Below are positions 42,477 to 59,800 of a stretch of DNA of 64,000 bases, one piece after another. The stretch is taken from positions 496,001-560,000 of the forward strand of contig NZ_CP133018.1 in assembly GCF_030866785.1 (NCBI RefSeq). The letters run 5' to 3'. The first letter of the stretch is position 1. Each line of letters starts with the position of its first letter. Both the position numbers and the translations under genes were made by a program. Source of the DNA: Agromyces protaetiae. GTDB lineage: Bacteria > Actinomycetota > Actinomycetes > Actinomycetales > Microbacteriaceae. The notes below the pieces were generated by a model. It was not told the origin of the DNA, searched no databases, and worked only from the letters and a program-made list of their open reading frames with translations.

Positions 42477-42549
42477 GCGCCCGTAGCTCAATGGATAGAG
42501 CATCTGACTACGGATCAGAAGGTTGGGGGTTCGAGTCCCTCCGGGCGCA
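42477..42549 (+). tRNA. tRNA-Arg (anticodon ACG)
   Basis: A 73-base cloverleaf. The acceptor stem pairs GCGCCCG with CGGGCGC plus discriminator A; the anticodon stem TCTGA/TCAGA encloses CTACGGA, giving anticodon ACG; the T loop is GTTCGAGTC. CCA is not encoded. It reads CGN Arg codons after A34 is converted to inosine. It sits directly before the utilisation locus. Confidence 0.95.
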
Positions 42550-42589
42550 CGCTCGATTGAGAAAGAACTGTGTTGAGACAGTGACGTTC

Positions 42590-42619
42590 GAACGGCTCCA
42601 GCTTCGGCTGGGGCCGTTC
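42590..42619 (+). terminator. tRNA terminator
   Basis: GAACGGCTCCAGC-TTCG-GCTGGGGCCGTTC forms a 13-bp stem with one G-T pair and a stable TTCG loop, followed by TTGCGTTTT. It is 41 bp after the tRNA end. Confidence 0.85.
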
Positions 42620-42651
42620 TTGCGTTTTGGGCTCACGTCGGGATAAAATTT

Positions 42652-42663
42652 CGGCCGGGGCCG
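42652..42663. promoter_or_regulatory. CGG-N6-CCG operator, site A
   Basis: CGG-CCGGGG-CCG, flanked by AAAATTT on the left and ATATTAGG on the right. TAAAAT and TATTAG are candidate -10 boxes beside it. It lies 45 bp before the first gene of the utilisation locus. Four other intergenic regions of the locus carry the same core. Confidence 0.6.
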
Positions 42664-42708
42664 ATATTAGGCTCCGGCGACGATGGTGTGTGGGAGTCTG
42701 GGGCGAGT

Positions 42709-43437
42709 GTGAGGGTCTTCGATTGCAATCGCCTGCTCGGGGCGCTGCCGTCGATCCCGACGGCGGGGTCCGAAGACGAGACGCTCGCGCAGCTCGACCA
42801 CCTCGGAATCGACGGTGCATGCGTGACGCCGGCGTGGATGCTGCACGGGGATCCGCGTACGTCGGCCGAGTTCGAGGCGGCCTCGGGCACGAGCCCCAGT
42901 TCCTCACGCCTCGTTCGCGTGTCGGTGGTCATACCGGGCAGCGCGGCGGCCGGCTGGCCGAGGCATCCCGAGATGCTCCGCGGTGAGCTCGCCGTGCGCG
43001 CCTGTCCGGTCCGGCATCGATTCGACCCGCTCGGCCGGAGCGCGCTGGAGTGGTGGAGCTTCCTCGCCGAGGCGGAGATGCCGCTGCTCCTCGACGCGGG
43101 GGAGATCGGCCTACCGCTCGTCGCGCGCATCGCCGGCGCCGTGCCGCGGCTCCGCATCGTCGTTCTCGCCGCCGGATACCGCGAGAACGCGCGCATCGGC
43201 GAGCTCGCGTCCGAGCACCCCAACCTGTTCTTCGAGACCGGCACCATCATCGGTGCGGGGGCGATCGAGTGGCTGGCCGGCGAGCTCGGTGCGCATCGGA
43301 TGCTCTTCGGTACGGGGGCGCCGGAGTGGGACGATGCCGGACCTCGCTTCCAGCTCGATCGCCTCATGCTCTCAGCCGGTGACGTGGAACTCATCGCCGG
43401 CGGATCATGGGAGCGCCTCGTGGGAGGTCGGCAGTGA
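42709..43437 (+). CDS. Amidohydrolase-like TIM-barrel protein, metal ligands apparently lost
   Basis: 242 residues from a GTG preceded by GGGGCGAG; in-frame GTG at 42688 is the alternative. It resembles its neighbour downstream: VRVFDCNRLLGALP replaces the MHGHIG start, so the HxH metal motif is absent, but LFFETGTIIGAGAIEWL and MLFGTGAPEW match the last strand (FGTDA in the neighbour, with Asp missing here). It is probably a non-metal or regulatory paralogue that pairs with the active enzyme. The GTG of the next gene overlaps its stop by 4 bp. Confidence 0.7.
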   Translation: MRVFDCNRLLGALPSIPTAGSEDETLAQLDHLGIDGACVTPAWMLHGDPRTSAEFEAASGTSPSSSRLVRVSVVIPGSAAAGWPRHPEMLRGELAVRACPVRHRFDPLGRSALEWWSFLAEAEMPLLLDAGEIGLPLVARIAGAVPRLRIVVLAAGYRENARIGELASEHPNLFFETGTIIGAGAIEWLAGELGAHRMLFGTGAPEWDDAGPRFQLDRLMLSAGDVELIAGGSWERLVGGRQ

Positions 43438-44195
43438 TCATCGACATGCACGGCCACATCGGGTCCTGGCGCGACTTCTTCATCGTGCAGCCCTCGGTCG
43501 AATGGCTGGTGGAGACCAACGCCCGAATCGGGATCGATGCCGTCGGGGTCTCGCATCTCGTCGCGATCGGGCATGACACCGTGGTCGGCAACGAGATGGC
43601 GTTGGCCGCCGCGCGCCGGTTTCCCGGACGCGTGGGTGTCTGGCTCGTCGCGAATCCGCACCGTCCCGAGGGGGCGGCAGAGCTCCGGCCGCACCTCGAC
43701 TCGCCGCACGTCTGGGGATTCAAGCTTCATCCCGACGTCCACGAGTGCCCGATCACGGATCCCGGCTACGCCCCGTATCTCGATCTCGCGCAGGAGCGGG
43801 GTCTGCCGGTGCTCACACACGGACAGGGCGGCTCGCCCTGGTCCGATCCGGCGCTCGTGGCCGAGACATCCGCTCGCTATGACGACCTGACCGTCCTCAT
43901 GGGGCATGCCGGACTGTGGGCGCACGCGTTCGATCGCGCGATCTCGCTCGCCAACGAGCACCCCGGTCTTCATCTGGAGATCTGCGGCTCCCGGCTGACG
44001 ACCCGGTGGCTCGAGCGCATGGTGCACCGGGCCGGCGCCGAGAAGGTGGTCTTCGGAACGGACGCCGTCTTCCTCGACCCCCGCATCGGTCTGGGAAAGG
44101 TGATGGGTGCACGTCTGACCGAGCCTGAGCGCACGCTCGTGCTCGGTGGCAATGCGCGCAGGATCTTGCGGCGCGATGAGGAGGCCCGAGGATGA
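43434..44195 (+). CDS. Amidohydrolase (PF04909 type)
   Basis: 253 residues. The metal motif HGH is at 5-7 of MIIDMHGHIG, with GFKLHPDVHE, LPVLTHGQGG, LMGHAGLWAH and VFGTDAVF following in the order expected of metal-dependent hydrolases or decarboxylases. Such enzymes often act as lactonases in sugar-acid pathways (for example fuconolactonase). It overlaps both neighbours by 4 bp and probably opens a lactone or amide of the imported sugar. Confidence 0.85.
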   Translation: MIIDMHGHIGSWRDFFIVQPSVEWLVETNARIGIDAVGVSHLVAIGHDTVVGNEMALAAARRFPGRVGVWLVANPHRPEGAAELRPHLDSPHVWGFKLHPDVHECPITDPGYAPYLDLAQERGLPVLTHGQGGSPWSDPALVAETSARYDDLTVLMGHAGLWAHAFDRAISLANEHPGLHLEICGSRLTTRWLERMVHRAGAEKVVFGTDAVFLDPRIGLGKVMGARLTEPERTLVLGGNARRILRRDEEARG

Positions 44196-45373
44196 CCAGG
44201 TTGGCGATCGACGGCGCGACCCCGGTTCACGACGGCTCGTGGCCGGCCTGGCCGCCCGCACCCGACGAGGCTCAGCGCGCGCTCGTGCACCAGGCCATGG
44301 AGAGCGGCGCGTGGAGCTCGTCGGCCGGCCCGCTCTGCGACCTGTTCGCCGGACGGTTCGCCGCCGCGCACGGTGCGTCGCACGGGATCACGATGACCAA
44401 CGGGACGCTGGCGCTCTTCGTCGCGCTCCGCGCGGCGGGCGTCGGACCGGGGGACGACGTCATCGTCCCGGCGTACACGTTCGTCGCCTGCGCCACCTCG
44501 GTCGTGCTCGCCGGAGCGACGCCCGTGATCGCCGACGTCGATCCGGAACACCTGCATCTGAACGCGGCGGCCATCGAGCGCAGTCTCACCGACCGCTCGC
44601 GTGCCGTCATGGTCGTGCATCTCGCGGGGAGCCCCGCGCCGATGCAGGAGATCAACGACCTCGCTGCGCGACGCGGGCTCCTCGTGCTGGAGGATTCGGC
44701 GCAGGCCCACGGCGCGACCTACCGCGATGCCCCGGTCGGCGCGATCGGCGACATCGGCACCTTCAGCTTCCAGTCGAGCAAGGCCATGACCGCGGGCGAG
44801 GGTGGTCTCATCGTCACGAACGACGATGAGCTGGCGCGTCACGCCTGGTCCCTCTGCAATGTGGGCCGACGGCGAGGCGGGGCCTGGTACGGGCACGACG
44901 AGATCGGGTGGAACCTGCGGATGACCGAGTTCCAGGCCGCGCTGCTGCTGCCGTGGCTCGACCGGCTTCCGGGCGAGATCCGAGTGCGCGAGGACTTCGC
45001 GCAGGCGCTCACGGCGGCGATCGCGGGCGGGGCGATCCCCGCGAGCATCGTCGCCGACCCTGAAGGGACCACCCGCAACTCGCGCCACCTCCTGATCCTG
45101 CGGCTCACGCCCGACACGGACCGGGAGTGGGTGGCTCGTGCGCTCGAGGCCGAAGGCGTTCCCGTCGACCTGGGCTATCCGCATCTCGGCCGGATCCCGG
45201 TCGTCGCCGAGCATGCACGTACGTCGCCGACGCCAGATCTCGATCTGGTGCTGGAACGGTTGCTGTGGATTCGCCAGCCGATGCTCATGTCGGGCCGGTC
45301 CGGGGCGGCGACGGTCGCCGAGGCCCTCGCGCGGGTCCTCCGGGACCCCCGCGCGCGCTCGCAGGCCGCGTAG
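44192..45373 (+). CDS. DegT/DnrJ/EryC1/StrS family aminotransferase
   Basis: 393 residues, a PLP enzyme. TNGTLALFVALRAAGVGPGD, VIVPAYTF, LEDSAQAHGA and SFQSSKAMTAGEGG are characteristic; the Lys of SSKAMTAGEGG carries PLP. Members usually add an amino group to keto-sugars in biosynthesis, but the reaction is reversible. In this locus, with transporter and lyase, a catabolic role removing an amino group from an unusual sugar is plausible. Last gene of a three-gene operon. Confidence 0.9.
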   Translation: MTRLAIDGATPVHDGSWPAWPPAPDEAQRALVHQAMESGAWSSSAGPLCDLFAGRFAAAHGASHGITMTNGTLALFVALRAAGVGPGDDVIVPAYTFVACATSVVLAGATPVIADVDPEHLHLNAAAIERSLTDRSRAVMVVHLAGSPAPMQEINDLAARRGLLVLEDSAQAHGATYRDAPVGAIGDIGTFSFQSSKAMTAGEGGLIVTNDDELARHAWSLCNVGRRRGGAWYGHDEIGWNLRMTEFQAALLLPWLDRLPGEIRVREDFAQALTAAIAGGAIPASIVADPEGTTRNSRHLLILRLTPDTDREWVARALEAEGVPVDLGYPHLGRIPVVAEHARTSPTPDLDLVLERLLWIRQPMLMSGRSGAATVAEALARVLRDPRARSQAA

Positions 45374-45459
45374 GCGTGCGGCGGCGATCCGGGTCGGTCG
45401 CCTCATCGAGTCGGCGCCAGCCGGGCGGCGCACCGTGCCGGATGCCTCGGTGGTGCCGG

Positions 45460-46206
45460 TCAGCGCCCTGTGGCACCCATCCGCGGGCGCCATCCGGCCG
45501 GCCGTAGGAAGGTCTCACCGTCGACATCGCCCGCGACGGGTATGGCTGTGTAGGCCCCGCGCCGGATCAGCGCCCACTCCACCGCGGCAGCCAGATCGCT
45601 CGGGTGGAGCGCGGCGACTGTGCGGCCGTCGGCCATCGTGGGTGCCGTGGGCTCTGCGTCTGGCGTGCTTGGTGACCGCCAGAGCGGCCAAAGATCCTCG
45701 GTCGTCGGCACAGCCAGGCGGAGCGACGTGATCGTGAGGTTCGTGTCCGCCGCCGCGAACGCCGCGCAGGTCTGCTCACCGAGTCGCTTCGTGAGGCCGT
45801 AGGGGGTCAGTGCGTCGGGGGAGGAGTGCGGGTCGATCGGAATCACGCCGTACTGCGCGTAGACCGACATGCTCGACACGTGGACGAAACTGCGGACGCC
45901 GGCGGCTCTCGCGCGCTGCAGGGCCAGGTACACGCTTCGCACGTTGACGTCGAATGCGGCGCGCACCTTCGACTCGTCGTGCATCGCGGCGCCCTTCGGC
46001 ACGACGGCCGCGAGATGGATCACCGCATCGCGGCCCTCGATCGCGCGTTCGACCGTGGTCTCGTCGAGGGCGCTGCCCTGCCGGAACTCCGCGCCGTCGA
46101 GCCGGCCGGCGGTCGTCACGTCGAGCACGGTGAGCTCGTGGTCCCGGAGGTGAGGCACGAGGGATCGGCCGACCACCCCAGCCCCGCCGATGATCAGTAT
46201 TTTCAC
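45460..46206 (-). CDS. NAD-dependent epimerase/dehydratase family protein
   Basis: 248 residues. IIGGAGVVGRSL binds NAD; DAVIHLAAVVPKG, a Ser-rich strand (FVHVSSMSVY) and the catalytic YGLTK follow. It is short for a sugar-nucleotide epimerase and resembles NAD-dependent uronate dehydrogenases or sugar dehydrogenases of the extended SDR class. It is divergent from the next gene across a region that carries operator site B. Confidence 0.87.
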   Translation of the reverse strand: MKILIIGGAGVVGRSLVPHLRDHELTVLDVTTAGRLDGAEFRQGSALDETTVERAIEGRDAVIHLAAVVPKGAAMHDESKVRAAFDVNVRSVYLALQRARAAGVRSFVHVSSMSVYAQYGVIPIDPHSSPDALTPYGLTKRLGEQTCAAFAAADTNLTITSLRLAVPTTEDLWPLWRSPSTPDAEPTAPTMADGRTVAALHPSDLAAAVEWALIRRGAYTAIPVAGDVDGETFLRPAGWRPRMGATGR

Positions 46207-46253
46207 CCTCGCCGTCCTTTCCGAACCGTGACGGTTTCATGGTAGCTTACTTA

Positions 46254-46265
46254 CGGTCTAGGCCG
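46254..46265. promoter_or_regulatory. CGG-N6-CCG operator, site B
   Basis: CGG-TCTAGG-CCG in the context TTACGGTCTAGGCCGTTA, an imperfect palindrome between two divergent genes. It starts 48 bp from the minus-strand gene and ends 17 bp before the plus-strand ATG, so it could control both. Confidence 0.65.
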
Positions 46266-46281
46266 TTATGATTGGAGCAGG

Positions 46282-47298
46282 ATGCGAACGACGTCGGAGT
46301 TGGACGCGCGGTTGACGAGTCCGAGCGCAGGGCTGGTGGAAGATCTGGCGCGCGTGAGCGGGGACATCGCCGTCGTCGGTGCCGGGGGGAAGCTCGGTCC
46401 GAGCCTCGTGCGTTTGGCCGCCCGCGCACTGCAGGAGGCCGGCTCGCGCAGCACCGTCTACGCCGTCTCGCGTTTCGGGGCACCCCGGGCGCGCGAGGCC
46501 GTCGAGGCCGAGGGGGTGACGGTCCTCCCGGCGGATGTCACGTCCGAGCGCGACTTGGCAGGGCTTCCCGACGTCGAGAACGTCGTGTTCCTCGTGGGCG
46601 AGAAGTTCGGCAGCGCCGAGAATCAGACGTCCACCTGGGCGACGAACACCTATCTTCCTGGCCGGATCGCCGAGCGTTACCCGCACGCCCGCATCGCTGC
46701 CCTCTCCACCGGCACGGTCTACCCGCTCGTGTCCGCGCGGTCCGGAGGCTCGGTCGAAGAGGACCCGGTCGGGCCGATCGGCGACTACGCGATGTCCTGC
46801 GTCGGGCGGGAGCGGATCTTCGCCCACTTCGCGGACGTCCATCAGTCTCCGCTGGCGTTGATCCGCCTGAACTACGCCGTCGAGATGCGGTACGGCGTGC
46901 TGGTCGACCTCGCGACGATGATCCTCGAGGACGAGCCCATCGATCTCTCGATGAGTGTCGCCAACGTCGTCTGGCAGGGCTACGCCAACGAGGTCACGCT
47001 CCGATCCCTCGTGCACGCCGGCATCCCACCGCTCACCCTGAATGTGACCGGGCCCGAGACGTTCTCGATCCGGTATGCCGCCGAGCGCCTCGCCCGGCTG
47101 CTCGGCCGCGAGGCGCGGTTCGCCGGTGAGGAAGGCGAGACCGCCTACCTCTCCAACGCCACGAAGTGCCTCGGGATGTTCGGCTACCCGGAGCTGACGC
47201 TCGACGAGCTCATCGTGCACACGGCCGAGTGGATGCTCGCCGGTGGTGCGACGCTCGGCAAGCCGACGAAGTTCCAGAAGCGGGACGGGAAGTTCTGA
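46282..47298 (+). CDS. NAD-binding epimerase-like protein with changed active site
   Basis: 338 residues. An N-terminal extension of about 30 residues precedes DIAVVGAGGKLGPSLVRLA. The catalytic SDR region reads YAMSCVGRER, so the lysine of YxxxK is Cys. LNVTGPETFSIRYAAERLAR is the typical C-terminal region of extended SDRs. The missing Lys predicts altered chemistry or a non-dehydrogenase role. Its stop overlaps the next ATG (TGATG). Confidence 0.8.
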   Translation: MRTTSELDARLTSPSAGLVEDLARVSGDIAVVGAGGKLGPSLVRLAARALQEAGSRSTVYAVSRFGAPRAREAVEAEGVTVLPADVTSERDLAGLPDVENVVFLVGEKFGSAENQTSTWATNTYLPGRIAERYPHARIAALSTGTVYPLVSARSGGSVEEDPVGPIGDYAMSCVGRERIFAHFADVHQSPLALIRLNYAVEMRYGVLVDLATMILEDEPIDLSMSVANVVWQGYANEVTLRSLVHAGIPPLTLNVTGPETFSIRYAAERLARLLGREARFAGEEGETAYLSNATKCLGMFGYPELTLDELIVHTAEWMLAGGATLGKPTKFQKRDGKF

Positions 47299-48371
47299 TG
47301 CTCGAGACGAGCCCGGTGGTGCAGGCCGACGCCCGCGCACGCCTGTGGGAGGGCGGCGTCATCCCCGCGCAGCCGCTTGCCCTCACCCGCGACCGCACGT
47401 TCGACGAGCGCCGACAGCGGGCGATTCTCCGGTACCACGTGGAGTCCGGTTCTCTCGGCATTGCGACCGCGGTGCACTCCACCCAGTTCAGCGTGCACGA
47501 CGAGCATCGCGCGTACCTCGCGCCCCTCCTCGAGCTCGCGGCGGAGACCGTGGCCGAGTATCCGAACCAGAAGCCGCTCCTGGTCGCCGGCGTGACGGGC
47601 ATGGTCCCGAAGGCCCGGCAGACGGCGGAGCTCGCAGCGGGCCTGGGATACGACTTCGTCCTCCTCTCCGGCTATGGGTGCGACGACCTCGACGAACGCC
47701 AGCTGCTCGACCGGGCGGCGGCGGTCAGCGAGGTGCTCCCCGTGATCGGCTTCTACCTGCAGCCGGCCGTGGGCGGGCGGGTGCTCTCGACGGACTATTG
47801 GCGGCGGATGGCCGAACTGCCGAACGTCGTCGGGATCAAGGTCGCGCCGTTCGACCGGTACGGGACCCTGGATGTCATGCAAGGGCTCGCGCTGTCGGAG
47901 CGCGCGGATCAGGTCGCCCTCTACACCGGGAACGACGACAATATCGTCTTCGACCTGGTGAGCCGGTTCCCGGCGCTCAATGCTCGTGGCGACCGGGTCG
48001 ACCTCACGTTCCGAGGTGGGCTCCTCGGGCAGTGGGCGGTCTGGACGAAGACGGCGGTTGAGACGCTCGAGGTGACGCGGCGGGCGCGCAACGGGGACGT
48101 CGAGGCGACCCGCGAGGCGCTGCGCATCAGTCAGGCGCTGACCGACGCGAACGGTGCGATCTTCGACGCGAAGAACGGGTTCAAGGGCGTCATCCCCGGG
48201 ATCCACGAGGTCCTCCGGCGGCATGGCCTGCTCGAGGGCATCTGGTTGCTGGATGAGACGGAGACGCTCTCACCCGGTCAGCTGCGCGAGATCGATCGGG
48301 TCTGGGACGCGTACCCGGAGCTGCGCGACGATGCGTTCATCGCGGAGCATCTCGACCGATGGCTGCGATGA
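47298..48371 (+). CDS. DapA-family aldolase/dehydratase, long form
   Basis: 357 residues, longer than DHDPS (about 290). The barrel has VAGVTGMVPKARQTAELAAG, PVIGFYLQP with a Tyr in the proton-relay position, and VVGIKVAPFDRYGTLD, whose Lys is the Schiff-base residue. Members split or dehydrate 2-keto-3-deoxy sugar acids. It is translationally coupled to the epimerase-like gene and convergent with the regulator gene. Confidence 0.83.
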   Translation: MLETSPVVQADARARLWEGGVIPAQPLALTRDRTFDERRQRAILRYHVESGSLGIATAVHSTQFSVHDEHRAYLAPLLELAAETVAEYPNQKPLLVAGVTGMVPKARQTAELAAGLGYDFVLLSGYGCDDLDERQLLDRAAAVSEVLPVIGFYLQPAVGGRVLSTDYWRRMAELPNVVGIKVAPFDRYGTLDVMQGLALSERADQVALYTGNDDNIVFDLVSRFPALNARGDRVDLTFRGGLLGQWAVWTKTAVETLEVTRRARNGDVEATREALRISQALTDANGAIFDAKNGFKGVIPGIHEVLRRHGLLEGIWLLDETETLSPGQLREIDRVWDAYPELRDDAFIAEHLDRWLR

Positions 48372-48384
48372 CCGCCGTGCGCGG

Positions 48385-49620
48385 TCACAGGGAGAGGCGA
48401 TAGAGCGTGAGCGGGCGACCGGCGGACTCGGGGCTCACCTGACCGACCCGCTCCGCGTGCCCGGCGAGCTCGAGGCGTTGGACGAGGCGACGTGCGGTGC
48501 GCATCTGCACATCCAGATGTGCCGCGATCGCGCGTGTGGTGACGGGCGCCCCGTCCTGTGATCGTTCGAGCTCTTGCAGGCGTTCGATGTTCGCGAGTGA
48601 CAGGCCGATCCGTGCGGCGAGCACTCCGGCGCTCAGGGGGGCCGACGCCTCGGCCTCGGCGGTCGAGTCGGCGGCACCGCGGAGCGTGAGGTCCACGTCG
48701 TGCCGGAGCGACACGACCGTGGCGGACCGCTTGTGCGCCTGGGCGCGCAGCATCGCGCGTTGCGCGAGCCGGGCGGCCTCGGATGCGCTGTGCCCCATGC
48801 CGAACCCGATGTGCACGGCCCGCGTCGACTGTTCCTGCGTCGCGTGGAAGGGCGACGTCGTGAGGTTGTGCGTCGCCCGTTGCAGGCTCCCGCGATTCGT
48901 GACGATGGCGACGTCCCCACCCTGACCGGTCGCGAGGAACGCCGACATCGAGCCGGCATCGGTGACCAGCGCGGCGTCGTCGGCTGCCAGCGGTGGATCG
49001 GCCCTGACCAGCCCGACGACGACGTGGGAGTCCTCGTTGACCTGGTTGGTGGTGAGCAGCATGAGCTCGGTGGCCGCCGCTCGGATCGCGCTCAGCGACG
49101 GGGCGAGACGCAGGCACGGCATCTCGGACTTGAGCGCGTCGTACACGGATGAGACACAGGTCACGGCCGTGTAGCCATCGTCCTGCGCCTGCCGATGGAA
49201 GTCGGCGATCATGCTCGACGTCAGGTCGGGGCGGTATCCGAGCACGCGCAGCTCGCCGGAGGGGATGCCGGCCTCCCCGATCGCCTCGACGACCTCGGCC
49301 TCACGCAGCGAGTCGATCGACAACCGGGTGACGTCGCGCCCGTCGAGGAGCAGGCGCACGACGGCGGTCAGCAAGGTGCTCCCGCTGTACTGCACGTACG
49401 TCGCGGGTCGCGTGAGCGCGGGCCTGCTGAGGAAGTACGGGATGGGCCCGGTGAACAGCCAGCCGTCGACTGCTCCGTCCTGCGAGGTGACGACCTCGGC
49501 GGCTTCGGACTCGTGCGAATACGGGAACGCGTGAAGCTCCGCGCCCGCCTGGCCGGTATCCGTGGACATGACCAGCGACACGAGGTCGTGAGGCCCGACC
49601 ACTCCGATCCTGACTCTCAC
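48385..49620 (-). CDS. Winged-helix transcriptional regulator of unfamiliar family
   Basis: 411 residues from a GTG with GGAGGAG 5 bp upstream. The N-terminal part (RIGVVGPHDLVSLVMS; VDGWLFTGPIPYFL; ATYVQYSGSTLLTAVVRLLL) resembles a periplasmic-binding-type or sensor fold. The middle (VHIGFGMGHSASEAARLAQR) resembles a degenerate GGDEF-like domain. The C-terminus is a winged helix (TTRAIAAHLDVQMRTARRLV; RPLTLYRLS). I do not recognise the named family. It is divergent from the Gfo/Idh gene with a palindrome between them and is the best candidate to bind the CGG-N6-CCG sites. Confidence 0.75.
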   Translation of the reverse strand: MRVRIGVVGPHDLVSLVMSTDTGQAGAELHAFPYSHESEAAEVVTSQDGAVDGWLFTGPIPYFLSRPALTRPATYVQYSGSTLLTAVVRLLLDGRDVTRLSIDSLREAEVVEAIGEAGIPSGELRVLGYRPDLTSSMIADFHRQAQDDGYTAVTCVSSVYDALKSEMPCLRLAPSLSAIRAAATELMLLTTNQVNEDSHVVVGLVRADPPLAADDAALVTDAGSMSAFLATGQGGDVAIVTNRGSLQRATHNLTTSPFHATQEQSTRAVHIGFGMGHSASEAARLAQRAMLRAQAHKRSATVVSLRHDVDLTLRGAADSTAEAEASAPLSAGVLAARIGLSLANIERLQELERSQDGAPVTTRAIAAHLDVQMRTARRLVQRLELAGHAERVGQVSPESAGRPLTLYRLSL

Positions 49621-49731
49621 TGGTGCTCCTCCGGTTCGCCTCGGCTCTTCGCCCTCGAGGTGGACGCTCCCCGAGCCGCTCGAGGCGAACGGCGAACGCG
49701 GGGGATCGCACCTCAGCGTACCCCTGAGAGC

Positions 49732-49749
49732 TTCCGGTGGGGACCGGAA
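49732..49749. promoter_or_regulatory. Perfect palindrome containing a CGG-N6-CCG core, site E
   Basis: TTCCGGT-GGGG-ACCGGAA, a perfect 7-bp inverted repeat, lies in the divergent region between the regulator and the Gfo/Idh gene. Its core CGG-TGGGGA-CCG matches the other four sites, though the flanks are less AT-rich. Placement suggests autoregulation. Confidence 0.6.
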
Positions 49750-49807
49750 TGGACGTTCCGCCATCGCCATGACGGCCATAGGATGGCCGGGTCAACAGAA
49801 GGTCGAC

Positions 49808-50725
49808 ATGCTCATCGGATTCATCGGGCTCGAAACGAGCCATCCGTTCTCCGACGCGGGGAATCTCCGTGCGCTCTGCCCCGACGCCGAGTTCCTGGTC
49901 ACGGGCGAGGCCGACCGGGTAGCGGCGTTCCGTGCGGACAACGCGACGACCAGGGTGACGCAGAGCGCGGAGTCGGTCATCGCGTCCGCGCCCGATGTCG
50001 TCGTCGTCTCAGTGCGACCGGCCGACGTGGCCCACGTCGTCGAGCAACTCGCCGCAGCGCGGATCCCCGCCTTCATCAACAAGCCCGCGGCCGCGAGCGA
50101 CGCAGAGGTCGATGCCCTGGTCGAGGCTGCGCGGGGAGCCGAAGAGCTCTTCCTGACGAGTTCGGTCCTGCGCTTCGCGCCTCGCGTGGGCGCACTGGAC
50201 CTCGACCGTGATGACGTCCTTGCGGTAAGCGTGACGCTGTCGCACGACGTCGGCTGGTGGGAAGATCCTGCGTTCTCCTGGCAGGACGCGGATGAGGGCA
50301 GTGGTGGGCTCGTGCCGGTCATGGGGGTGCACGCGCTGGATGTCCTCGCGGCCGTCTTCGGCCCCGGCCTCGAGGTCGAGTACTGCCGGGTCGCCACGCG
50401 CACGCATCTCCGGCTGACGAACGGTGACGTCGGTCAGCTCGCAGTCCGCCTGCCGTCGGGCGCACGCGCGCTCATCGGCCTGGTCGGGGTGTCGTCGCGC
50501 GAGGAGTACGCGTTCACCTTCCACTCGCCGGTCGGCGACACCCGCCTCGTCCTGTCGAGCGATGTCGGTGAGGAGGACCCGCTCGGCTACGTCGGTACGG
50601 CGCGGCAGATCATCGCGATGGCGCGCGGGGCCGCGTCACCGGTGCCACTGCATGAGAGCGCGTCGATACTGCGCAGCCTCGCGACCGCGTCGACGATGGC
50701 TCGCGAGGCCGGGCTAGGGCGCTGA
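49808..50725 (+). CDS. Gfo/Idh/MocA family oxidoreductase
   Basis: 305 residues from the ATG at 49808 with AGAAGG 5 bp upstream. The Rossmann start is MLIGFIGLETSHPFSD, not the usual GxGxxG, and IPAFINKPAAAS corresponds to EKP with Asn before Lys. The C-terminal domain holds GGLVPVMGVHALD with the catalytic His. Probably an NAD-dependent sugar dehydrogenase of the locus. It overlaps the convergent aldolase gene by 12 bp. Confidence 0.82.
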   Translation: MLIGFIGLETSHPFSDAGNLRALCPDAEFLVTGEADRVAAFRADNATTRVTQSAESVIASAPDVVVVSVRPADVAHVVEQLAAARIPAFINKPAAASDAEVDALVEAARGAEELFLTSSVLRFAPRVGALDLDRDDVLAVSVTLSHDVGWWEDPAFSWQDADEGSGGLVPVMGVHALDVLAAVFGPGLEVEYCRVATRTHLRLTNGDVGQLAVRLPSGARALIGLVGVSSREEYAFTFHSPVGDTRLVLSSDVGEEDPLGYVGTARQIIAMARGAASPVPLHESASILRSLATASTMAREAGLGR

Positions 50726-51637
50726 GACGACCGCGGCTCGGGCGGCTCGCGCCGCCTCGATGACCGCAGCTCTCGTGGCCGGGTCAGGCGCGGTGGCGCC
50801 CCGAGGGTCGAACCCGAACTCGGGCGGGATCGTCCCCTCGTCGACCGCGACCCAGAGCATGCGTTGCACGTAGGCGTCCATGGGTTCCACGAAGGTGGAG
50901 TTGGCGAAGGTGTCGAGGTGGGGAGACAGTCGGCGTAGGGTCGCCGTGTCATCTGCCCGGAAGGCCCGCAGGAATGCCGCGGTGAGCCCGGTGCAGGCGG
51001 CGCCGAGGCCGATCAGGGCACCGGACGCGCCCCACGACAGGCTCTCGGGGAGCATCAGGTCTTCGCCCGACAACACCGTGCGCCCCGCGCGTGCTGCGAG
51101 CTCGATCCCGTTCCGGCTCGCGCGCTTCGCGCGCAGGCGGGCCGGCTTGAAGGCGGCGACGGCCGGATGGTCGAGGAGCCCGGGCAACGCGGCGTGATCC
51201 AGCGGGGACGAGTACAGGTCGAACAGGATCAGCGGGAGACCCGACCGGTCCCACAGCTGATCGAGCCCGCGGCGGAGGTCCTGCGCGACAAGCGCCCGGG
51301 GTGTGAACACGAGCAGCGCCGAGGCGCCCGCATCGGCGGCATGACGTGGCCACTCGCCGATCTCGCCCGACTCGTCGAGCTGGACGCCCGTCACGACGAG
51401 GTCGGCGGCCTCGCTCGCTGCGAGGACGACGTCCTTCCGCTCTGCGATGGAGAGATGCGGGCCGCGCCCCGTGTGCACGGCGGCGGCGAGCCCGGACGCG
51501 CCGTCGCGCATCACCGCGTGTGCGTAGCTCGCCGTGACGGCCGGATCGGTCTCCCCTGACGCCGTCATCGGCGTGGCGATGGCGGCGATGAACGCTCCGT
51601 GCGCGCGCCGCGCGAAGTGTTCCGCCTCTGGGTGCAT
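50714..51637 (-). CDS. DapA-family aldolase/dehydratase, short form
   Basis: 307 residues. FIAAIATPMTASGETD is the family start; GLAAAVHTGRG, LPLILFDLYSSPLD and VAAFKPARL follow, the last with the Schiff-base Lys. It is a second, only distantly similar member beside the one at 47.3 kb, so two different keto-acid steps are likely. It is divergent from the transporter operon across operator site C. Confidence 0.85.
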   Translation of the reverse strand: MHPEAEHFARRAHGAFIAAIATPMTASGETDPAVTASYAHAVMRDGASGLAAAVHTGRGPHLSIAERKDVVLAASEAADLVVTGVQLDESGEIGEWPRHAADAGASALLVFTPRALVAQDLRRGLDQLWDRSGLPLILFDLYSSPLDHAALPGLLDHPAVAAFKPARLRAKRASRNGIELAARAGRTVLSGEDLMLPESLSWGASGALIGLGAACTGLTAAFLRAFRADDTATLRRLSPHLDTFANSTFVEPMDAYVQRMLWVAVDEGTIPPEFGFDPRGATAPDPATRAAVIEAARAARAAVVSAP

Positions 51638-51682
51638 CGCACCAGGTTACCCACGCCGGAGCGGCGTGCCGGTTCCCGCCGG

Positions 51683-51724
51683 TTGACTTTTCGCAGCTCC
51701 CGGTAGTAATTTCGGGACAGGCCG
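51683..51724 (+). promoter_or_regulatory. Promoter with CGG-N6-CCG operator, site C
   Basis: TTGACT is followed after about 15-18 bp by TAGTAAT/TAATTT, and the operator CGG-GACAGG-CCG (51713-51724) comes immediately after, flanked by AATTT and TTATTATT. A repressor here would block the start of the transport operon. Confidence 0.65.
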
Positions 51725-51750
51725 TTATTATTCGAGCGAAAGAGGCAGCT

Positions 51751-52998
51751 GTGAAGAGAGTCATGATGGGTGGGGCCGTGGTGGCAGCAACCGCGTTGGT
51801 CCTGACCGGCTGTTCGAGTTCCGGCAGCGACACGACCGAGGGTGAGCCGTCGACGGTGACGGTGTGGATGTATCCGGTCATCGCGGACGAGAGTGCGAGC
51901 AGCACGTTCTGGGGCGAGGTCGAGTCCGAGTTCGAAGCCGAGAACGAGGACATCGACCTGGTGATCGAGCTGCAGCCGTGGGATAACCGCGACGAGAAGA
52001 TCGCCACGGCGATCGCAGCGAACTCGGGGCCGAACCTGGTGCTGCTCGGGGCGGACCAAGCACTGAACTACTACGAGATCGGTGGTCTCAAGCCGGTCAC
52101 CGACGGCATCGACGACGTCGATTCCTATCTGCCGGCGCCGGTGGGCGCGGTGACGTTCGACGACGAGATCTACGGGGTGCCGATCTACCAGACGGCGACG
52201 ACGACCGTGTACAACCGCGCACTGTTCGAGAGTGCGGGGATCACGGACCTCCCGGAGACCTGGGACGACGTGATCGCGGCGGCACCGGCGCTCGCTGAGC
52301 AGGGCGTGGCGGTGTTCGACTATTCGGGGAGCCCGGAACTCACGCTGAACCTCACGTACTACCCGTTGCTCTGGCAGGCCGGCGGCAGTGTGTTCACCGA
52401 AGACGGCACCGACGTCGCGTTCGACAGCCCCGAGGGTGAGGCGGCGCTGCAGTTCCTCATCGACCTCCAAGCGGTGGGCGGTCTGCCCGCCGACGCGGCA
52501 GTGAAGAACAACGCCGTCGAAGGCGGCCCGCTCGGGACCGGCACGGCCGCGATGGGCCAGGGGATGAATCAGGCGCAGTTCGCGCAGATGGCGACGCTCC
52601 TCGGTGAGGACGTCGCGGCCGTCGGGCTGCCGTTGAGCGACGTCGACCAGGTGACGTTCGGCACCCCTGGCGTGCTCTCGCTGACGACCATCGACGGCAA
52701 CGACGAGGCGTCCCTCAAGGCCGCCAACTTCATCGCCTCGCCGGACATCGCGCACCGGCTCAACGTCGCCGCCGCGAACTATCCGGTGCGCGACGATGTC
52801 GACGCCCCGAACGATGACGAGACGACGCAGATGTTCATGGACGCGCTCGAGTTCGCCAAGCCGGGTGAGGTCGTTCCCAACGCGCGCCAGGTCATGGCGG
52901 TGCTCGCGCCGAACATCCAGGCCGCCCTGCAGGGGAGCAAGACCGCCGAGCAGGCACTGGCGGATGCGGCGGCCGAGGCTCGGGCAGCCCTCCGCTGA
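51751..52998 (+). CDS. Family 1 sugar-binding lipoprotein
   Basis: 415 residues from a GTG with AGAGG upstream. The lipoprotein signal ends at VLTGC with the Cys at 21, and STVTVWMYPVIADE begins the mature fold. It belongs to the family 1 (oligosaccharide) class, unlike the binding protein at 17.1 kb. It captures the product of polysaccharide breakdown for the two permeases downstream. Confidence 0.92.
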   Translation: MKRVMMGGAVVAATALVLTGCSSSGSDTTEGEPSTVTVWMYPVIADESASSTFWGEVESEFEAENEDIDLVIELQPWDNRDEKIATAIAANSGPNLVLLGADQALNYYEIGGLKPVTDGIDDVDSYLPAPVGAVTFDDEIYGVPIYQTATTTVYNRALFESAGITDLPETWDDVIAAAPALAEQGVAVFDYSGSPELTLNLTYYPLLWQAGGSVFTEDGTDVAFDSPEGEAALQFLIDLQAVGGLPADAAVKNNAVEGGPLGTGTAAMGQGMNQAQFAQMATLLGEDVAAVGLPLSDVDQVTFGTPGVLSLTTIDGNDEASLKAANFIASPDIAHRLNVAAANYPVRDDVDAPNDDETTQMFMDALEFAKPGEVVPNARQVMAVLAPNIQAALQGSKTAEQALADAAAEARAALR

Positions 52999-53078
52999 TC
53001 AGCCAGCATCCGGGGGTCAGGGCTGACCGTATGGTCGTCCTGATCCCCGGTTCGTGTCACGAGTGAGGTCTGAGAACC

Positions 53079-54041
53079 ATGACGAGATCCGACGTGGAGC
53101 GTCCGCGGACGCTTCGTCCAGAGCCGCCGCCGCAGCAGGAGCCCAGCCCCAGGGCGGTGCGCAGACGACGGTCGTTCGGCAGCCGCCTGCGCGAGCCGGC
53201 GACGGCCTTCTTGTTCGTGCTGCCGATGCTGGCGTTGTTCGTCGTCTTCCGATTCGTACCGATCTTCGGTGCGGCGGGGATGAGTTTCACCGACTTCCGC
53301 CTCAACGGCGAGTTCGAGTTCATCGGCATCGAGAACTACGAACGGCTCTTCAGCGATCCCGTCTTCTTCACTGCACTGCAGACGACCCTGCTGTTCGGGC
53401 TCATCTACGTCCCGCTGGTGATGGTCCTGTCGCTGGCGACGGCGATGCTGCTCCATCACGTGGTCTGGGCGAAGGGGTTCTTCCGCGGCGCGCTCTTCCT
53501 TCCGTACGTCACGTCGTTCGTCCTGGCCGGCGTCATCTGGCTGTGGGTCTTCGCCGCCGACGGGCTGATCAACGGGACGTTCGCACACTGGGGCATTCCC
53601 GGCATTCCGTTCCTCTCCGGCGATCAGGCCACGGTGCTGAGCTCGCTGGCGGTGGTGACCGCATGGCGCGGATTCGGATACTCGATGCTCATCCTCCTCG
53701 CCGGGCTGAAGAACATCCCCGAGGAGCTCACCGAGGCCGCGATCCTCGACGGCGCCACCGGGCGGCAGCGCTTCTTCCGGATCACACTGCCGCTGCTCAA
53801 GCCAGTGCTCTTCTTCGTGCTCGTCATCGAGACCATCGGTGCGTTCCAGATCTTCGACGTGGTCTACGTCATGACCGGGGGCGGTCCGGCTCGGGCGAGC
53901 TACTCCCTGATCTACATGCTCTACGAGCAGGGGTTCAAGTTCTTCGACTTCGGGTACGCCGCCACCATCGGCATCGCCCTGTTCGTGCTCGTGTTCATCG
54001 TCTCGCTCATCCAGCGACGCTTCCTCGATCGGGAGGACTGA
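53079..54041 (+). CDS. Sugar ABC transporter permease (MalF/UgpA type)
   Basis: 320 residues. A polar Arg-rich N-terminus (about 45 residues) precedes six helices; LPMLALFVVFRFVPIFGAAG opens the membrane part and the EAA loop is EELTEAAILDGATGRQRF near 213-230. Its last base is the first base of the next ATG (TGATG). It forms the channel with the following permease. Confidence 0.93.
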   Translation: MTRSDVERPRTLRPEPPPQQEPSPRAVRRRRSFGSRLREPATAFLFVLPMLALFVVFRFVPIFGAAGMSFTDFRLNGEFEFIGIENYERLFSDPVFFTALQTTLLFGLIYVPLVMVLSLATAMLLHHVVWAKGFFRGALFLPYVTSFVLAGVIWLWVFAADGLINGTFAHWGIPGIPFLSGDQATVLSSLAVVTAWRGFGYSMLILLAGLKNIPEELTEAAILDGATGRQRFFRITLPLLKPVLFFVLVIETIGAFQIFDVVYVMTGGGPARASYSLIYMLYEQGFKFFDFGYAATIGIALFVLVFIVSLIQRRFLDRED

Positions 54042-54916
54042 TGTCCGGAACCGCACTCGCCGGCACCGCACTCGCCGACACCGCGTCGCGATCGTCGACG
54101 CGACGCAACCGCCGAGCAAGCCAGATCGCGATCATCGCGCTCTTGAGCTTGACCGGGATCTTCACCGTCGGTCCGTTCCTCGCGGTGCTCATCCTCGCGC
54201 TGTCTCCGGCCGGCGCGCCGACGATCCCGTACGCGTGGCCGGAAGCGCTCACCTTCGACAACATCATCCGAGTCCTGACCGCGCAGAACTTCCTGCAGTG
54301 GTCGCTGAACTCCGTGATCTACTCGGTCGTGTCGGTGGTCATCATCCTCCTCACCGCAGCCATGGCGGGGTACGCCTTCGCCAAGAAGCGATTCCCGGGG
54401 CGAGACGCGATCATGTGGTCGTTCCTCGCGACGCTCATGGTGCCGGTGCAGGTCACGCTCATCCCGATGTTCGTGTTGATCGCTTCGCTGGACGGGGTGA
54501 ACACCTACTGGGGGCTGATCGTGCCGACGCTGGCGAACTCGCAAGCCGTGTTCCTGATGCGTCAGTTCATCCGAGGGCTGCCCGATGACCTGTTCGAGGC
54601 GGCGCGGATCGACGGTGCGAGCGAGTGGACCGTCTTCACACGCATCGTGCTGCCGCTGATCAAGCCGATCCTGGCCACCCTCGGGATCTTCGTGTTCCTC
54701 TGGCACTGGAATGACTTCCTCTGGCCGCTCATCATCGCGCAGTCCGACTCCATGCGCACCCTCACCGTGGGGCTCGCCGCGATGAACGCCGAGACCGTGT
54801 ATCTCTCCACCCTCATGGCGGCAGCCGCCATCAGTGTGATCCCCTGCTTGCTGATCTTCGCGATCCTGCAGCGGTATCTGGTCAACAGCGTCGCCATGAG
54901 CGGGATCAAGGGATGA
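54041..54916 (+). CDS. Sugar ABC transporter permease (MalG/UgpE type)
   Basis: 291 residues. The start includes an Ala/Thr repeat (GTALAGTALADTA). Six helices and an EAA loop (DLFEAARIDGASEWTVF near 182-198) follow. No ATPase is encoded anywhere in the locus, so a shared MsmK-type ATPase elsewhere must power the importer. It overlaps the etherase gene by 4 bp. Confidence 0.93.
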   Translation: MSGTALAGTALADTASRSSTRRNRRASQIAIIALLSLTGIFTVGPFLAVLILALSPAGAPTIPYAWPEALTFDNIIRVLTAQNFLQWSLNSVIYSVVSVVIILLTAAMAGYAFAKKRFPGRDAIMWSFLATLMVPVQVTLIPMFVLIASLDGVNTYWGLIVPTLANSQAVFLMRQFIRGLPDDLFEAARIDGASEWTVFTRIVLPLIKPILATLGIFVFLWHWNDFLWPLIIAQSDSMRTLTVGLAAMNAETVYLSTLMAAAAISVIPCLLIFAILQRYLVNSVAMSGIKG

Positions 54917-55815
54917 CGGCGACGACGTCGCGGTCGACCGAGGCGCGGAACGACGCCACGCTCGATCTCGACCTCTGGAGTTCTCAGAGAGCCATCGCCG
55001 CCATCCTCGCCCAGGACGCCAAGGCCGTCGAGGCTGCGGAGGCCGCGACGGATGCCCTCGCGGCGCTCGTCGACGCGACCCTTCCGCGGATCGAGAGCGG
55101 CGGCCGGGTCCACGTGTTCGGGGCGGGAGCCTCGGGGCGACTGGCGCTGCTCGATGCGACCGAGACGGTTCCGACCTTCGGGGCCCCGCCCGGACTCCTC
55201 GTCCCGCACTTCCCGGGTGGTGTCGACGCCATCCTCGATCCGAGCATCGACTTCGAAGACGCCGACCGGCTCGGCGAGTCGGACGCGGCCGATGTCACTG
55301 GTGCTGACGTCGTGCTCGGCGTGACGGCCTCGGGAACGACCAGCTACGTCGCCGGCGCGCTGCGAGCTGCCCGGCGTGCCGGGGCCGTGACCGCGCTCGT
55401 CACGAGCAACCCGCTGGCGCCGCTCGCGACCCTGGCGGACCATCTCATCGTGGCGGACACCGGGGCCGAGGCGATCACGGGGTCCACCCGCCTCAAGGCC
55501 GGGACGGCCACGAAGGTGCTGCTCAACGCGTTCTCCACGACCTTGATGGTCAGGAGTGGGCGGACGTATTCGAATCTCATGACGAATCTCGTGGTGACGA
55601 ACTCCAAGCTCCGCGATCGGGCGATCGCCGTCATCGAGATGGCGACGGGGTGCGACGCGGCACGCGCTGCCGGCCTGCTCGAGCTGGCCGATGGCAGCGT
55701 GCCGCTCGCCATCGTCCACGCGCGCTCCGGCCGGACGATCGGCGAGTGCCGAGCCGCGCTGAACGAATCGGCCGGAATCCGCTCGGCGCTGGATCGGCTG
55801 GAGCGTACTGGGTGA
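54913..55815 (+). CDS. murQ: N-acetylmuramic acid 6-phosphate etherase (MurQ) family protein
   Basis: 300 residues, an SIS-fold enzyme. HVFGAGASGRLALLDATE includes the phosphate loop, Glu84 (ATETVPTFG) aligns with the catalytic Glu83 of E. coli MurQ, and TGSTRLKAGTATK is the family signature. MurQ removes D-lactate from MurNAc-6-P to give GlcNAc-6-P. Here it lies between an oligosaccharide transporter and a BadF-type kinase, so the substrate is a phosphorylated ether sugar, MurNAc or an analogue. Confidence 0.87.
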   Translation: MTATTSRSTEARNDATLDLDLWSSQRAIAAILAQDAKAVEAAEAATDALAALVDATLPRIESGGRVHVFGAGASGRLALLDATETVPTFGAPPGLLVPHFPGGVDAILDPSIDFEDADRLGESDAADVTGADVVLGVTASGTTSYVAGALRAARRAGAVTALVTSNPLAPLATLADHLIVADTGAEAITGSTRLKAGTATKVLLNAFSTTLMVRSGRTYSNLMTNLVVTNSKLRDRAIAVIEMATGCDAARAAGLLELADGSVPLAIVHARSGRTIGECRAALNESAGIRSALDRLERTG

Positions 55816-56750
55816 TCGGTGCGCGGTACGTCGGGCTCGATGTCGGCGGAAGCGGACTCCGCGCCGAAGTGGAGGTCGACGGGGTTCGAAGGATGCTCCG
55901 GCACACGGGATACGTGGATCGACGGAATGGCCGAATCGACGAGGATGCGCTGACCGACCGAATCGCCCGCCTGCTGCATCCGGTGATGTCTGTGGGCGGC
56001 GCTGGGATCGAACGGCTCGTCATCGGCACCACCGGTGTGCCTGACCTGGTCGATTCCGATGTGCTGGCGCTTCGCGTGCGCGACGAACTCCGATGCGGAG
56101 CCGTGCTCGTCGTGAGCGATGTGCTCACGACGCATGTCGGGGCCCTCGGGGGCCGGCCCGGTGCGGTGATCGCCGCTGGGACCGGCGCGATCGGCTATGC
56201 CACCGACCACGTCACCGTCGAGCGGCGGGTCGATGGATGGGGGTATCTCCTGGGCGACGAAGGAAGCGGCGCGTGGATCGGTGCGGCCGGCCTGCGTGCG
56301 GCGCTGTGCGCGGCGGACGGCCGGAGCGGAGGTTCCGAGACGTTGCTCCAGGCGCTGCTCGGCAGCTTCGGGTCGACCGACGACCTCATCGACGCGGTGT
56401 ATTCCTCAGCGACGCCGGGGTCGTTCCTCGCCGGCTTCACGCCGACCGTGGCCGCCGCTGCCACGACCTGTGGTGTGGCGGCCGGGATCTGGAACGATGC
56501 GGGCGCGATGCTCGCGCGCAACATCCACGCGATCTCCCAGGGAGTGCCGCCGCACTTCTCGTGGGGAGGCGGGCTGTTCGACGTCGGCGACCTCCTGATC
56601 CGACCGTTCCGCCAGGAGCTCGGACGGCTGGCGCCCGGAGCCGAGGTGAGTGCGCCGCGCGGCAGTGCCGCCGCGGGGGCATTGGCGTTGGCGCGCGGGG
56701 ACGCCTCGACGCACGTCGGCAGGGCCGCGGAGTTCGCCTGGTCGAACTGA
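55812..56750 (+). CDS. BadF/BadG-type sugar kinase (MurK/NagK-like)
   Basis: 312 residues from a GTG overlapping the etherase stop. ARYVGLDVGGSGLRAEV is the first phosphate loop, IAAGTGAIGY the second and YLLGDEGSGAWIG the third. Members phosphorylate GlcNAc and MurNAc (MurK). Coupled to a MurQ-type gene, it probably makes the 6-phosphate that the etherase uses. Last gene of the transport operon. Confidence 0.88.
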   Translation: MIGARYVGLDVGGSGLRAEVEVDGVRRMLRHTGYVDRRNGRIDEDALTDRIARLLHPVMSVGGAGIERLVIGTTGVPDLVDSDVLALRVRDELRCGAVLVVSDVLTTHVGALGGRPGAVIAAGTGAIGYATDHVTVERRVDGWGYLLGDEGSGAWIGAAGLRAALCAADGRSGGSETLLQALLGSFGSTDDLIDAVYSSATPGSFLAGFTPTVAAAATTCGVAAGIWNDAGAMLARNIHAISQGVPPHFSWGGGLFDVGDLLIRPFRQELGRLAPGAEVSAPRGSAAAGALALARGDASTHVGRAAEFAWSN

Positions 56751-56756
56751 CCATTG

Positions 56757-56768
56757 CGGTCTAGGCCG
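56757..56768. promoter_or_regulatory. CGG-N6-CCG operator, site D
   Basis: CGG-TCTAGG-CCG, identical in its 12-bp core to site B. TTGCGG overlaps its left side and TATGGT lies about 18 bp further, so the operator sits between the -35 and -10 boxes of the lyase gene. Confidence 0.65.
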
Positions 56769-56812
56769 TAAAGCGTCTATGGTGGCCGCATCCCAAGGAA
56801 GGCGGTTCGCCG

Positions 56813-59800
56813 ATGTTGCATGGCCGGAAGTCCTGGATGGTTGCTGGTGTCGTCTCTGCGGCGCTCGTGGCCTCCTCCCTGCAGGTGACGACCGCGTCGG
56901 CCGTCGAGTACGAGGACGTCTTCGACGTCCTGGATCTCGGCCGGCCCGAGCTGAGCGCGGTGGCCTCCGAGGTCGCCCAGAACGACCTGGTCGGCGCTGC
57001 CGAGGCGCTCCAGACCCACTTCGCCGCGCGGACCACACCGGAGTGGACGCCGATCGTCCCCGGGTCGGTCAGCTCGCTGGTCACCTCGACGGCCGATGAA
57101 CTGGCGGACGGGTACTTCGAGTTCCGCGGCGGCCTGTCCCGGGACTTCAGCTCGGGAATCGACTGGGCCGACACCTGGAGCGACGATCCGGCCGTGCCGC
57201 TCGGTCAACCGCACTACTGGATGTACGACTTCACGTTCTACGCGACACTCACCGGCGCCTATCTCGCGCTCCCGAGCACGGATCCGAAGCGCGCCGTGTA
57301 TACCGCGGCATGGGAACGGACCGCCGTCGACTTCATGGACGCGCACGAGAACGTGGTCTCCCCCTACAACCGGCTCGGCACGGCCAAGCGCCTCACGCAA
57401 TGGCTCGGGGCGTACTCCGTCTTCAAGGACTCGCCGACCGCCGACCCGCAGGTGCTGTCACGGTACGTCGCGCAGATTCACGCGATGGCCGACGATCTCT
57501 GCCGCAATCTGGAGCGGCACAACGGCAACAACTGGTACGCCTCCATCGCGCGTGCCGTCTACATGACCGCCGTCTACTTCCCCGAGTTCATCAGCTCGAC
57601 GACCTGGGAGCGCCGGGTGATCGGCGCGATGGACCGGGTCGTCGCACTGCAGATGAAGGGCGACGCCGTCCAGTTCGAGCCGGCGCTGAACTATCAGGCG
57701 TACAACCTCGACCTGCTGGTGCAGATCGAGCGGTTCGGACGCCTGAACGGGCGTTCCCCGCTCGCGGCACACCTGCAGGTCATGGAGCGCCAGGCCGAGG
57801 TCATCATGGCCGCGACGATGCCGGACTTTACCGTGCCGCTGATCGGGGACACCCCGTCGTCGACGTTGAGCCTGACCGCGTACGCCGAGCTGTTCGACCG
57901 GGACGACATGCGCTGGGTGGCGAGCGAGGGTGCGACCGGTACGATGCCCGCGCTCGGGTCGGACCTCGCGCCTCACTCGTATGCGTTCATGCGGACCGGG
58001 TGGGACAGCGAGGACGCCTATCTGGCCGTCGCCAATCAGGACACCAACTACGGGGCGTCCCACCGGCATCCGGATGACCTGTCCGTGGTGGCCTACGCCC
58101 ACGGCCGGCCGCTCCTCATCGATCCCGGCGTGGTCGACTACAACGACACGCCCTCGGCGAACTGGCTCAGGCGGACGACGGCCGCGCACAACACGGTCGA
58201 GGTCAACGGCCAGGCGCAGCCGGGTCCTGCGGCCGGCGACCGGGTGCGCCGGGCTGAAGCCTGGGCCAGCAACGCCGGCTTCGACTTCTACGCCGGGATG
58301 CACGACGATTACGCCCCGATCACGCATGACCGGAACGTGTTCTTCGCGAAGGAAGCCGGGCTGTGGATCCTCAGCGACCGCCTGCAAGGGTCGTCGTCGA
58401 CCAACGCGTACCGGCAGCTCTGGCATCCGCCGGGTGATGCGCCGATCGACGTGACCGCCGCGGGCACCGTGAACGCGGGGTTCGGGTCGGTCCCCGGCAT
58501 CTCGGTGATCCCGGTCGATGCTGTGCCGACGACGGTGCACGACGACGGCTACATCGCCGACGGCCTGGGCGGGTTGGAGTCGGACGCCGAGTACTTCTCG
58601 TTCGATCAGAGCGTCGCAGGACCGGCGGCGTTCGATACCGTGCTGCTGCCCGGTGCGGCCGGCTCCGCCCCGGACGCCGACGTGACCCGGACCTCACTCG
58701 GGGTCCCGGTCGACACCGCGACCGCGTTCGACGTCGAGCTCGCCGACTCCAGCCTGGCGTTCTATCAGAGTTTCGAATCGACGCCGCAGGCGCGTACCGT
58801 CGGTGCTCACACGACCGATGCGAGGGTCCTCGCGATCACGTCCGATGGACTCGGCGACGTCACGACGATCCAGCTGGTCGGCGGAACCGGCGTGTCCGAC
58901 TCGGCTGGCGACCTCGTCAGGTCCGCGGGGCCGCTCGGCGACGTCAGCGTACGACTCGGCTCGACGCTCCGGATCGAGACCGGGGGGTTCCGCGACGAAG
59001 AATTGCGTGTTCGCGACCTCGACGCGGTCGCGGTCGAGGTCAATGGCATCGCGGTGCCGCTCGTTCGTGACGGCGACTACGTCGTGATCGCCGAACAGTC
59101 GCGGACGACCGGAGACGCCGTGTTCGAGCCCGTGTTCGACGAGGCAGCCGGGGTCGTCGACGTGAGCGTCGAGGGACTGGCAGGCGACTTCCAGCCCGCG
59201 GCGGGCACGTGGCGACCGGTGGAGACCTCGCCCGGCGTCTGGGCCGTCTCGCAGACGACCGCCACAGCCGTCGAGGCGGCCCTGCTCCGTCGGGTGAGTG
59301 CGTCCGAATCGTCGGTCCGGGTCTCGGCAGATCTCGAGTCGACCGGCCCCACCTTCGGCGTCGGAGCATACGTTCGGTATGTCGATCCGTCGAACTACTA
59401 CCTGGCGCGCGTGTACCGCACCGGCGGTGTGCTCAGCGCGCAGGTCGTGAAGGTGGCGAACGGCACCGCCGCGATCATCGGCGACGCGCCGATCACGCTG
59501 TCGGTGACCGATCCGATCGAGCTCGACGTCGTCGTGGTCGGCGGCGCGATCGAGCTCCGGGTGAACGGCGCGCTCGGCGTTCGCGTCCACGACGCGACCC
59601 ATGCCGATGGTGGCGTGGGCCTCTACGCGCACCGCACGCAGGCGACCTTCTCCGAGCTCGAGATCGGTCAGGGCTCGCGCGTCTCGAGCGACTTCTCGGC
59701 TGGGACATCCGGCTGGACCGCGACCTCGGGGACCTGGGCCGCCGCGCAGCGAGCCGGCGAATGGGGGCTCCACCAGCAGAGCACCTCCGCCCGCGACACC

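Follow-up and report, generated by a model that had tools for sequence, protein, structure and literature searches.

The window examined here is a 64 kb stretch, of 70% GC, from the 4.18 Mb genome of Agromyces protaetiae. Within it, five palindromic sites with a CGG-N6-CCG core, designated A to E, are dispersed through a sugar-use locus that also encodes a 411-residue regulator (48385..49620, minus strand). We propose, with a probability of about 0.8, that all five sites serve a single local regulon as its operators, with this regulator repressing the genes until a ligand releases it. A preliminary description of the region had suggested a single regulon run by the 48385 protein, and this is supported by the finding that a matrix trained on loci from other genomes picks exactly these five sites; the regulon is in all likelihood real. 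Judged from sequence and a predicted fold, the regulator is best read as belonging to a new family of repressors that are released by a ligand and control a catabolic module of their own; the family would be new, although the kind of device is known.

Five intergenic sites in the window

The CGG-N6-CCG cores were confirmed at 42652, 46254, 49735, 51713 and 56757 (A to E respectively), and all five are intergenic as previously reported, ending 16–61 bp upstream of a likely start codon. As 22 bp operators, A (AATTTCGGCCGGGGCCGATATT, 42647..42668) is upstream of the first of the amidohydrolase-like genes, which starts with GTG at 42688, and E (CATTGCGGTCTAGGCCGTAAAG, 56752..56773) is upstream of a secreted heparinase II/III-type gene. 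The other three are in divergent regions: B (ACTTACGGTCTAGGCCGTTATG, 46249..46270) between genes 45460–46206 (minus) and 46282–47298 (plus), C (GCTTCCGGTGGGGACCGGAATG, 49730..49751) between the regulator and oxidoreductase genes, where it is a weak candidate autoregulatory site, and D (AATTTCGGGACAGGCCGTTATT, 51708..51729) between a DapA-like gene (minus) and transporter genes (plus). Because B, C and D could each serve two genes, the alternation of gene strands across the locus is explained.

These positions stand, but three other details of the original argument do not. A 12-mer was said to be common to B and D, but it is B (46254) and E (56757) that share CGGTCTAGGCCG, and D (51713) has CGGGACAGGCCG. 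Site E was described as a perfect palindrome, but it matches at five of six paired positions, as do A and B, with four in C and three in D, and none of the five is perfect. It is also C, not E, that adjoins the regulator, with E being about 7 kb from the regulator start.

The bare core occurs 115 times in the window, as compared with a mean of 114.76 in 100 shuffles (50 of which reach 115), so the core frequency is that of chance, and the refuting condition named in the preliminary description, if applied to the bare core, would have gone against the proposed regulon. A true operator can hide beneath a core occurring at chance frequency. The exact 12-mer CGGTCTAGGCCG has two copies in the genome by pattern search, both in the locus, and an extended 18 bp pattern, TTWCGGNCNNGNCCGWAA, is found at three genome places with at most one mismatch, all of them in the locus (B, E, and A, which has one mismatch). 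At two mismatches or fewer there are 17 places, and the locus accounts for four of them (A, B, D and E). The 12-mer CGGTCTAGACCG was not found in those portions of the literature that were searched, nor was a description of the locus or of the motif, although this does not imply their absence in print.

A longer operator defined in other genomes

Scanning named genomes with an alignment of the regulator (A1) yielded 131 loci, and the 80 best of these (L034–L113; 1.58 Mb) were retained. The sequence GGNCTAGNCC is present in these in 32 copies, though CTAG totals just 336 there. A symmetric 22 bp matrix was seeded with the GGNCTAGNCC copies (one, in L079, was omitted) and then refined using the loci alone, without the window, giving the consensus TTWCGGTC-YW-GACCGWAA. 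Above 12 bits the matrix identifies 322 sites distributed over all 80 loci, as compared with two in an order-3 Markov copy of the loci and a mean of 4.9 (maximum 49) with 200 column-permuted matrices. At least two sites are present in 76 loci and at least three in 61. Called genes leave just 12% of the bases uncovered, yet 200 of the 322 sites lie largely outside them; with the five of the window added and 60 bp allowed for start calls, the figure becomes 272 of 327.

Within the window, the top five matrix positions are exactly B (28.0 bits), A (25.8 bits), D (24.5 bits), E (24.2 bits) and C, and the sixth position scores 6.5 bits. A second matrix from 32 Nonomuraea loci, trained on sites that the first matrix had selected, gives the same five, and on 55 own-genome loci the sole score above 12 bits is L122, which is site D itself. 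The sequence data thus indicate that the true operator is longer than the bare core and corresponds to TTWCGGTC-YW-GACCGWAA. One might suppose that, given the abundance of CGG-N6-CCG in GC-rich DNA, no meaning attaches to five intergenic copies, as the unremarkable number of bare cores and the 338 genome places reached at three mismatches would allow, but the longer operator selects the same five sites and is present in every one of the 80 loci, and we attach next to no credence to this explanation. A chance origin of A, B, D and E is ruled out by the longer operator, and chance is a serious option for C alone.

The 10 bp centre of the operator, GGTCTAGACC, is identical to that of the DasR consensus, A(G/C)TGGTCTAGACCA(G/C)T, as given in PMC4398421. 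The sites could therefore be dre-type operators of a GntR/HutC regulator (DasR/NagR) encoded elsewhere and responsive to amino-sugar phosphates, with the 48385 protein as a bystander, and the locus does contain an SIS gene and a BadF-type kinase gene that could handle amino sugars. Outside the centre, however, position ±6 is C/G at a frequency of 0.92 here and T/A in dre sites, the TTW/WAA arms reach further than in dre, and the central TA is variable. Moreover, ten common gene clusters of the 80 loci that are not represented in the window include no DNA-binding Pfam family at E 0.001 (five of the ten have no match at all), and the operator is missing upstream of epimerase gene copies that lack a 48385-type regulator, as described below. 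We regard this alternative as quite improbable.

The operator accompanies the regulator

Of 394 genomes in the class, 26 contain TTWCGGNCNNGNCCGWAA exactly and 18 encode a close regulator (scoring more than 400 bits, with 214.7 as the next value). The pattern is found in 14 of the 18 genomes with a close regulator versus 12 of the 376 others (p = 1.3e-15), and inside one family in 12 of 14 with a close regulator versus one of eight without (p = 0.0015). In 59 own-genome relatives, which lack the regulator with the exception of G343, no signal was observed, with TTWCGGNCNNGNCCGWAA at one mismatch being found at 24 places versus 31 for a backward control.

Thirty of the 394 genomes carry the epimerase gene, and 30 copies were scored, one per genome, from the 36 matches listed; second copies near the regulator in G471, G499 and G517 were left out, so that 14 regulator genomes rather than 17 count as linked. 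All 14 copies on a contig with a close regulator have the operator (24.7–35.5 bits), positioned 11–28 bp upstream of the match, whereas only one of the 16 copies without a close regulator exceeds 12 bits, at a distance of 145 bp and without a CGG/CCG core (p = 2e-7). The 16 comprise eight with a distant paralogue of the regulator, five with neither, and three second copies located far from the regulator. The distant paralogue differs in its recognition region, and no site above 9 bits is present in 12 of its loci. The comparison of orthologous loci that had been recommended at the outset is favourable to the regulon: the sites recur upstream of orthologous genes, and they accompany this regulator, not the distant paralogue, and are not a feature of genomes lacking both.

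In the 80 loci, where gene context was derived from crude gene calls and clustering, the operator is upstream of the gene in 57 of the 59 loci with the epimerase-like gene and in 46 of the 51 with the solute-binding protein, and upstream of 46 of 65 DegT aminotransferase genes. Of 74 other loci, 59 also have a site above 12 bits upstream of the regulator gene and near its start, C being the weak counterpart in the window. One operator thus precedes several genes of the locus and co-occurs with the regulator across genomes, as is characteristic of a local repressor regulon.

In genomes with the distant paralogue (L206, L207, L209, L210, L213 and L221), a different AT-rich element, roughly TTTAGGMTGTCTYTAAAT as read by eye, follows TTGACTT about 90–150 bp upstream of the epimerase match. 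This is possibly the paralogue's own operator.

Predicted architecture of the regulator

The regulator gene probably starts with GTG at 49620, which is preceded by GGAGGAG. At E 0.001 the protein falls into no family of Pfam or NCBIfam, and the named ones among the 101 relatives found are mostly called hypothetical. It is the most widespread gene across the 80 loci, although it was also the search key, and it is rare in its own bacterial family (3 of 299 genomes, its own included and the other two weakly). In alignment A1, with 24 sequences, the C-terminal region is strongly conserved (TTRDIAxxLGVQxRTARRMLxRLELAG...GRPLTLY). The structure model (pLDDT 88.8) predicts a PrpR-like sensor followed by a GGDEF/cyclase-like palm and a C-terminal winged helix, with residues 199–411 modelled as palm plus winged helix, the latter spanning 326–411.

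By comparison of predicted structures, the sensor matches the fold of PrpR (solved as 2pju, E. coli PrpR, and 2q5c, a Clostridium NtrC-family regulator) at 11–13% identity, although the PrpR_N sequence family is missing from the eight Pfam families listed for the regulator at E 1. PrpR carries AAA+ and Fis-type modules after its sensor, where the regulator has a palm and a C-terminal winged helix instead; no Pfam match to an AAA+ sigma-54 activator domain is present in the 411 residues. The palm is similar in fold to those of GGDEF proteins, class III cyclases and GTP cyclohydrolase III, but is situated in a transcription factor. In the Pfam list, GntR is not above cut-off and LacI does not appear.

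The regulator resembles LacI-family regulators as a local repressor with palindromic operators upstream of catabolic genes and a presumed pathway inducer, and shares the periplasmic-binding-like layout of the LacI sensor at a lower Z (~9), but LacI has an N-terminal helix-turn-helix rather than a C-terminal winged helix. DasR and NagR are likewise repressors of sugar loci with palindromic operators, but have an unrelated sensor fold; GntR/HutC proteins combine an N-terminal winged helix with a chorismate-lyase-like effector domain, whereas the helix-turn-helix of the regulator is C-terminal. No description of the combination of PrpR-like sensor, palm and C-terminal winged helix was found in the portions of the literature covered by our searches, and we suggest it as a sensor architecture. 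For a protein family annotated as hypothetical, this provides a probable function together with a precisely defined operator and, in many actinobacteria, a regulon that can be tested.

A rather doubtful possibility is that the family reads two signals at the same time: the PrpR-like domain would sense a pathway metabolite, and the palm a nucleotide or nucleotide-shaped ligand. The family would then be new and widespread in actinobacteria, with the paralogue subfamily having the same frame and a different operator, which we view with similar reserve.

Promoters and mode of regulation

In epimerase promoters elsewhere, TTGACA is followed after 18 bp by TACGGT inside the operator (by eye). In the window, possible -10 elements overlap the left half of operators A (TAAAAT), B (TACGGT) and D (TAATTT), and operator E covers a possible -35. 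Repression is favoured because the operator overlaps the -10. PrpR-fold proteins are bacterial enhancer-type activators, and the shared sensor fold could indicate that the regulator binds these sites as an activator or dual regulator rather than as a simple repressor, but a protein bound over the -10 in the epimerase promoters and at A, B and D would block RNA polymerase, and the regulator has no AAA+ domain; we think activation unlikely.

For the preferred reading, repression by the 48385 protein, we infer that a dimer would bind TTWCGGTC-YW-GACCGWAA directly through the C-terminal winged helix; from the sequence comparisons the protein very probably binds these sites and probably acts there as a repressor. 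When bound, it would overlap the -10 or the transcription start and would block the genes of the sugar locus, and probably its own gene. A pathway intermediate filling the PrpR-like sensor would cause release, and the module would be induced.

Several observations weigh against this interpretation. The matrix seed GGNCTAGNCC was itself suggested by the 12-mer of the window. Site C is a weak member of the five (12.9 bits), and it rests on position and matrix score rather than on the pattern, since it needs three mismatches to TTWCGGNCNNGNCCGWAA, the level reached at 338 places in the genome. Four of the 18 class genomes with a close regulator, the window's own included, lack the exact pattern, and at one regulator locus, L191, nothing within 1.5 kb scores above 9 bits. 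Sites are missing near the called start in 15 of the 74 regulator genes and 19 of the 65 DegT genes. Many of the genomes counted as positive come from organisms that also supplied training loci and hence are not independent (the negatives are), and kinship among genomes inflates the p-values. Lastly, a general promoter scan of 42300–57000 found one promoter-like site (chance mean 0.8), on the minus strand, and none at A–E on the plus strand, and so lends no support to the promoter elements proposed above.

Genes of the locus and neighbouring features

Except where noted, assignments are by Pfam. Operator A is followed on the plus strand by two Amidohydro_2 genes (42688–43437 and 43407–44195), the second without a match in the PDB by sequence, and by a DegT/DnrJ/EryC1/StrS aminotransferase-like gene (44192..45373) resembling sugar and aminocyclitol aminotransferases. 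Flanking B are an NAD-dependent epimerase/dehydratase-like gene (45460..46206, minus) and the epimerase-like gene 'Epi' (46282..47298, plus), which has no Pfam family and a distant PDB match to the TerB oxidoreductase. A DHDPS-like gene (47166..48371, plus; under the curated cut-off) overlaps the preceding gene as listed, and its real start is further downstream. Beyond the regulator are a Gfo/Idh/MocA oxidoreductase gene (49808..50725, plus; ATG at 49808 preceded by AGAAGG) and the DapA-like aldolase/lyase gene (50714..51637, minus). The plus strand then carries an ABC sugar transporter (51751..54916; solute-binding protein 51751–52998, permeases 53079–54041 and 54041–54916), an SIS-domain gene (54913–55815), a BadF-type kinase gene (55812–56750), and the gene for a secreted heparinase II/III-type lyase of 1474 residues (56813..61237), for which the closest solved structures are heparinase III proteins.

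Window genes found in the 80 loci include the aminotransferase (60 loci), the epimerase-like (59) and DHDPS-like genes (55), a permease (52) and the solute-binding protein (51). The SIS and BadF-type kinase genes (54913–56750) are outside this common locus, a kinase relative being clustered in L112 alone of the 80. As the operator marks genes of a polysaccharide-use locus, it provides a handle for finding the substrate. Operators also often precede the gene for a large secreted protein not present in the window (95 assignments in 50 loci). This secreted protein (cluster c0, for example L038:1776-4166) is found in 50 of the 80 loci (L038–L113), and the one member scanned has no Pfam or PDB match; we would guess that it is a propeller-like repeat protein that acts as a lyase or in binding. 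Hydantoinase/oxoprolinase genes are located near the locus in some Nonomuraea-type genomes (L047, L058, L064 and others; clusters in 17 and 14 loci).

The locus (42551 onward) is directly preceded by a tRNA-Arg gene (42477–42550), which is matched in 60 of 60 genomes of the genus. Because similarity stops at the 3' end of the tRNA and five same-genus genomes are without the regulator, the module is possibly an island that integrated at tRNA-Arg. Between the tRNA gene and operator A there is a strong terminator-like hairpin of 13 pairs (42590–42619).

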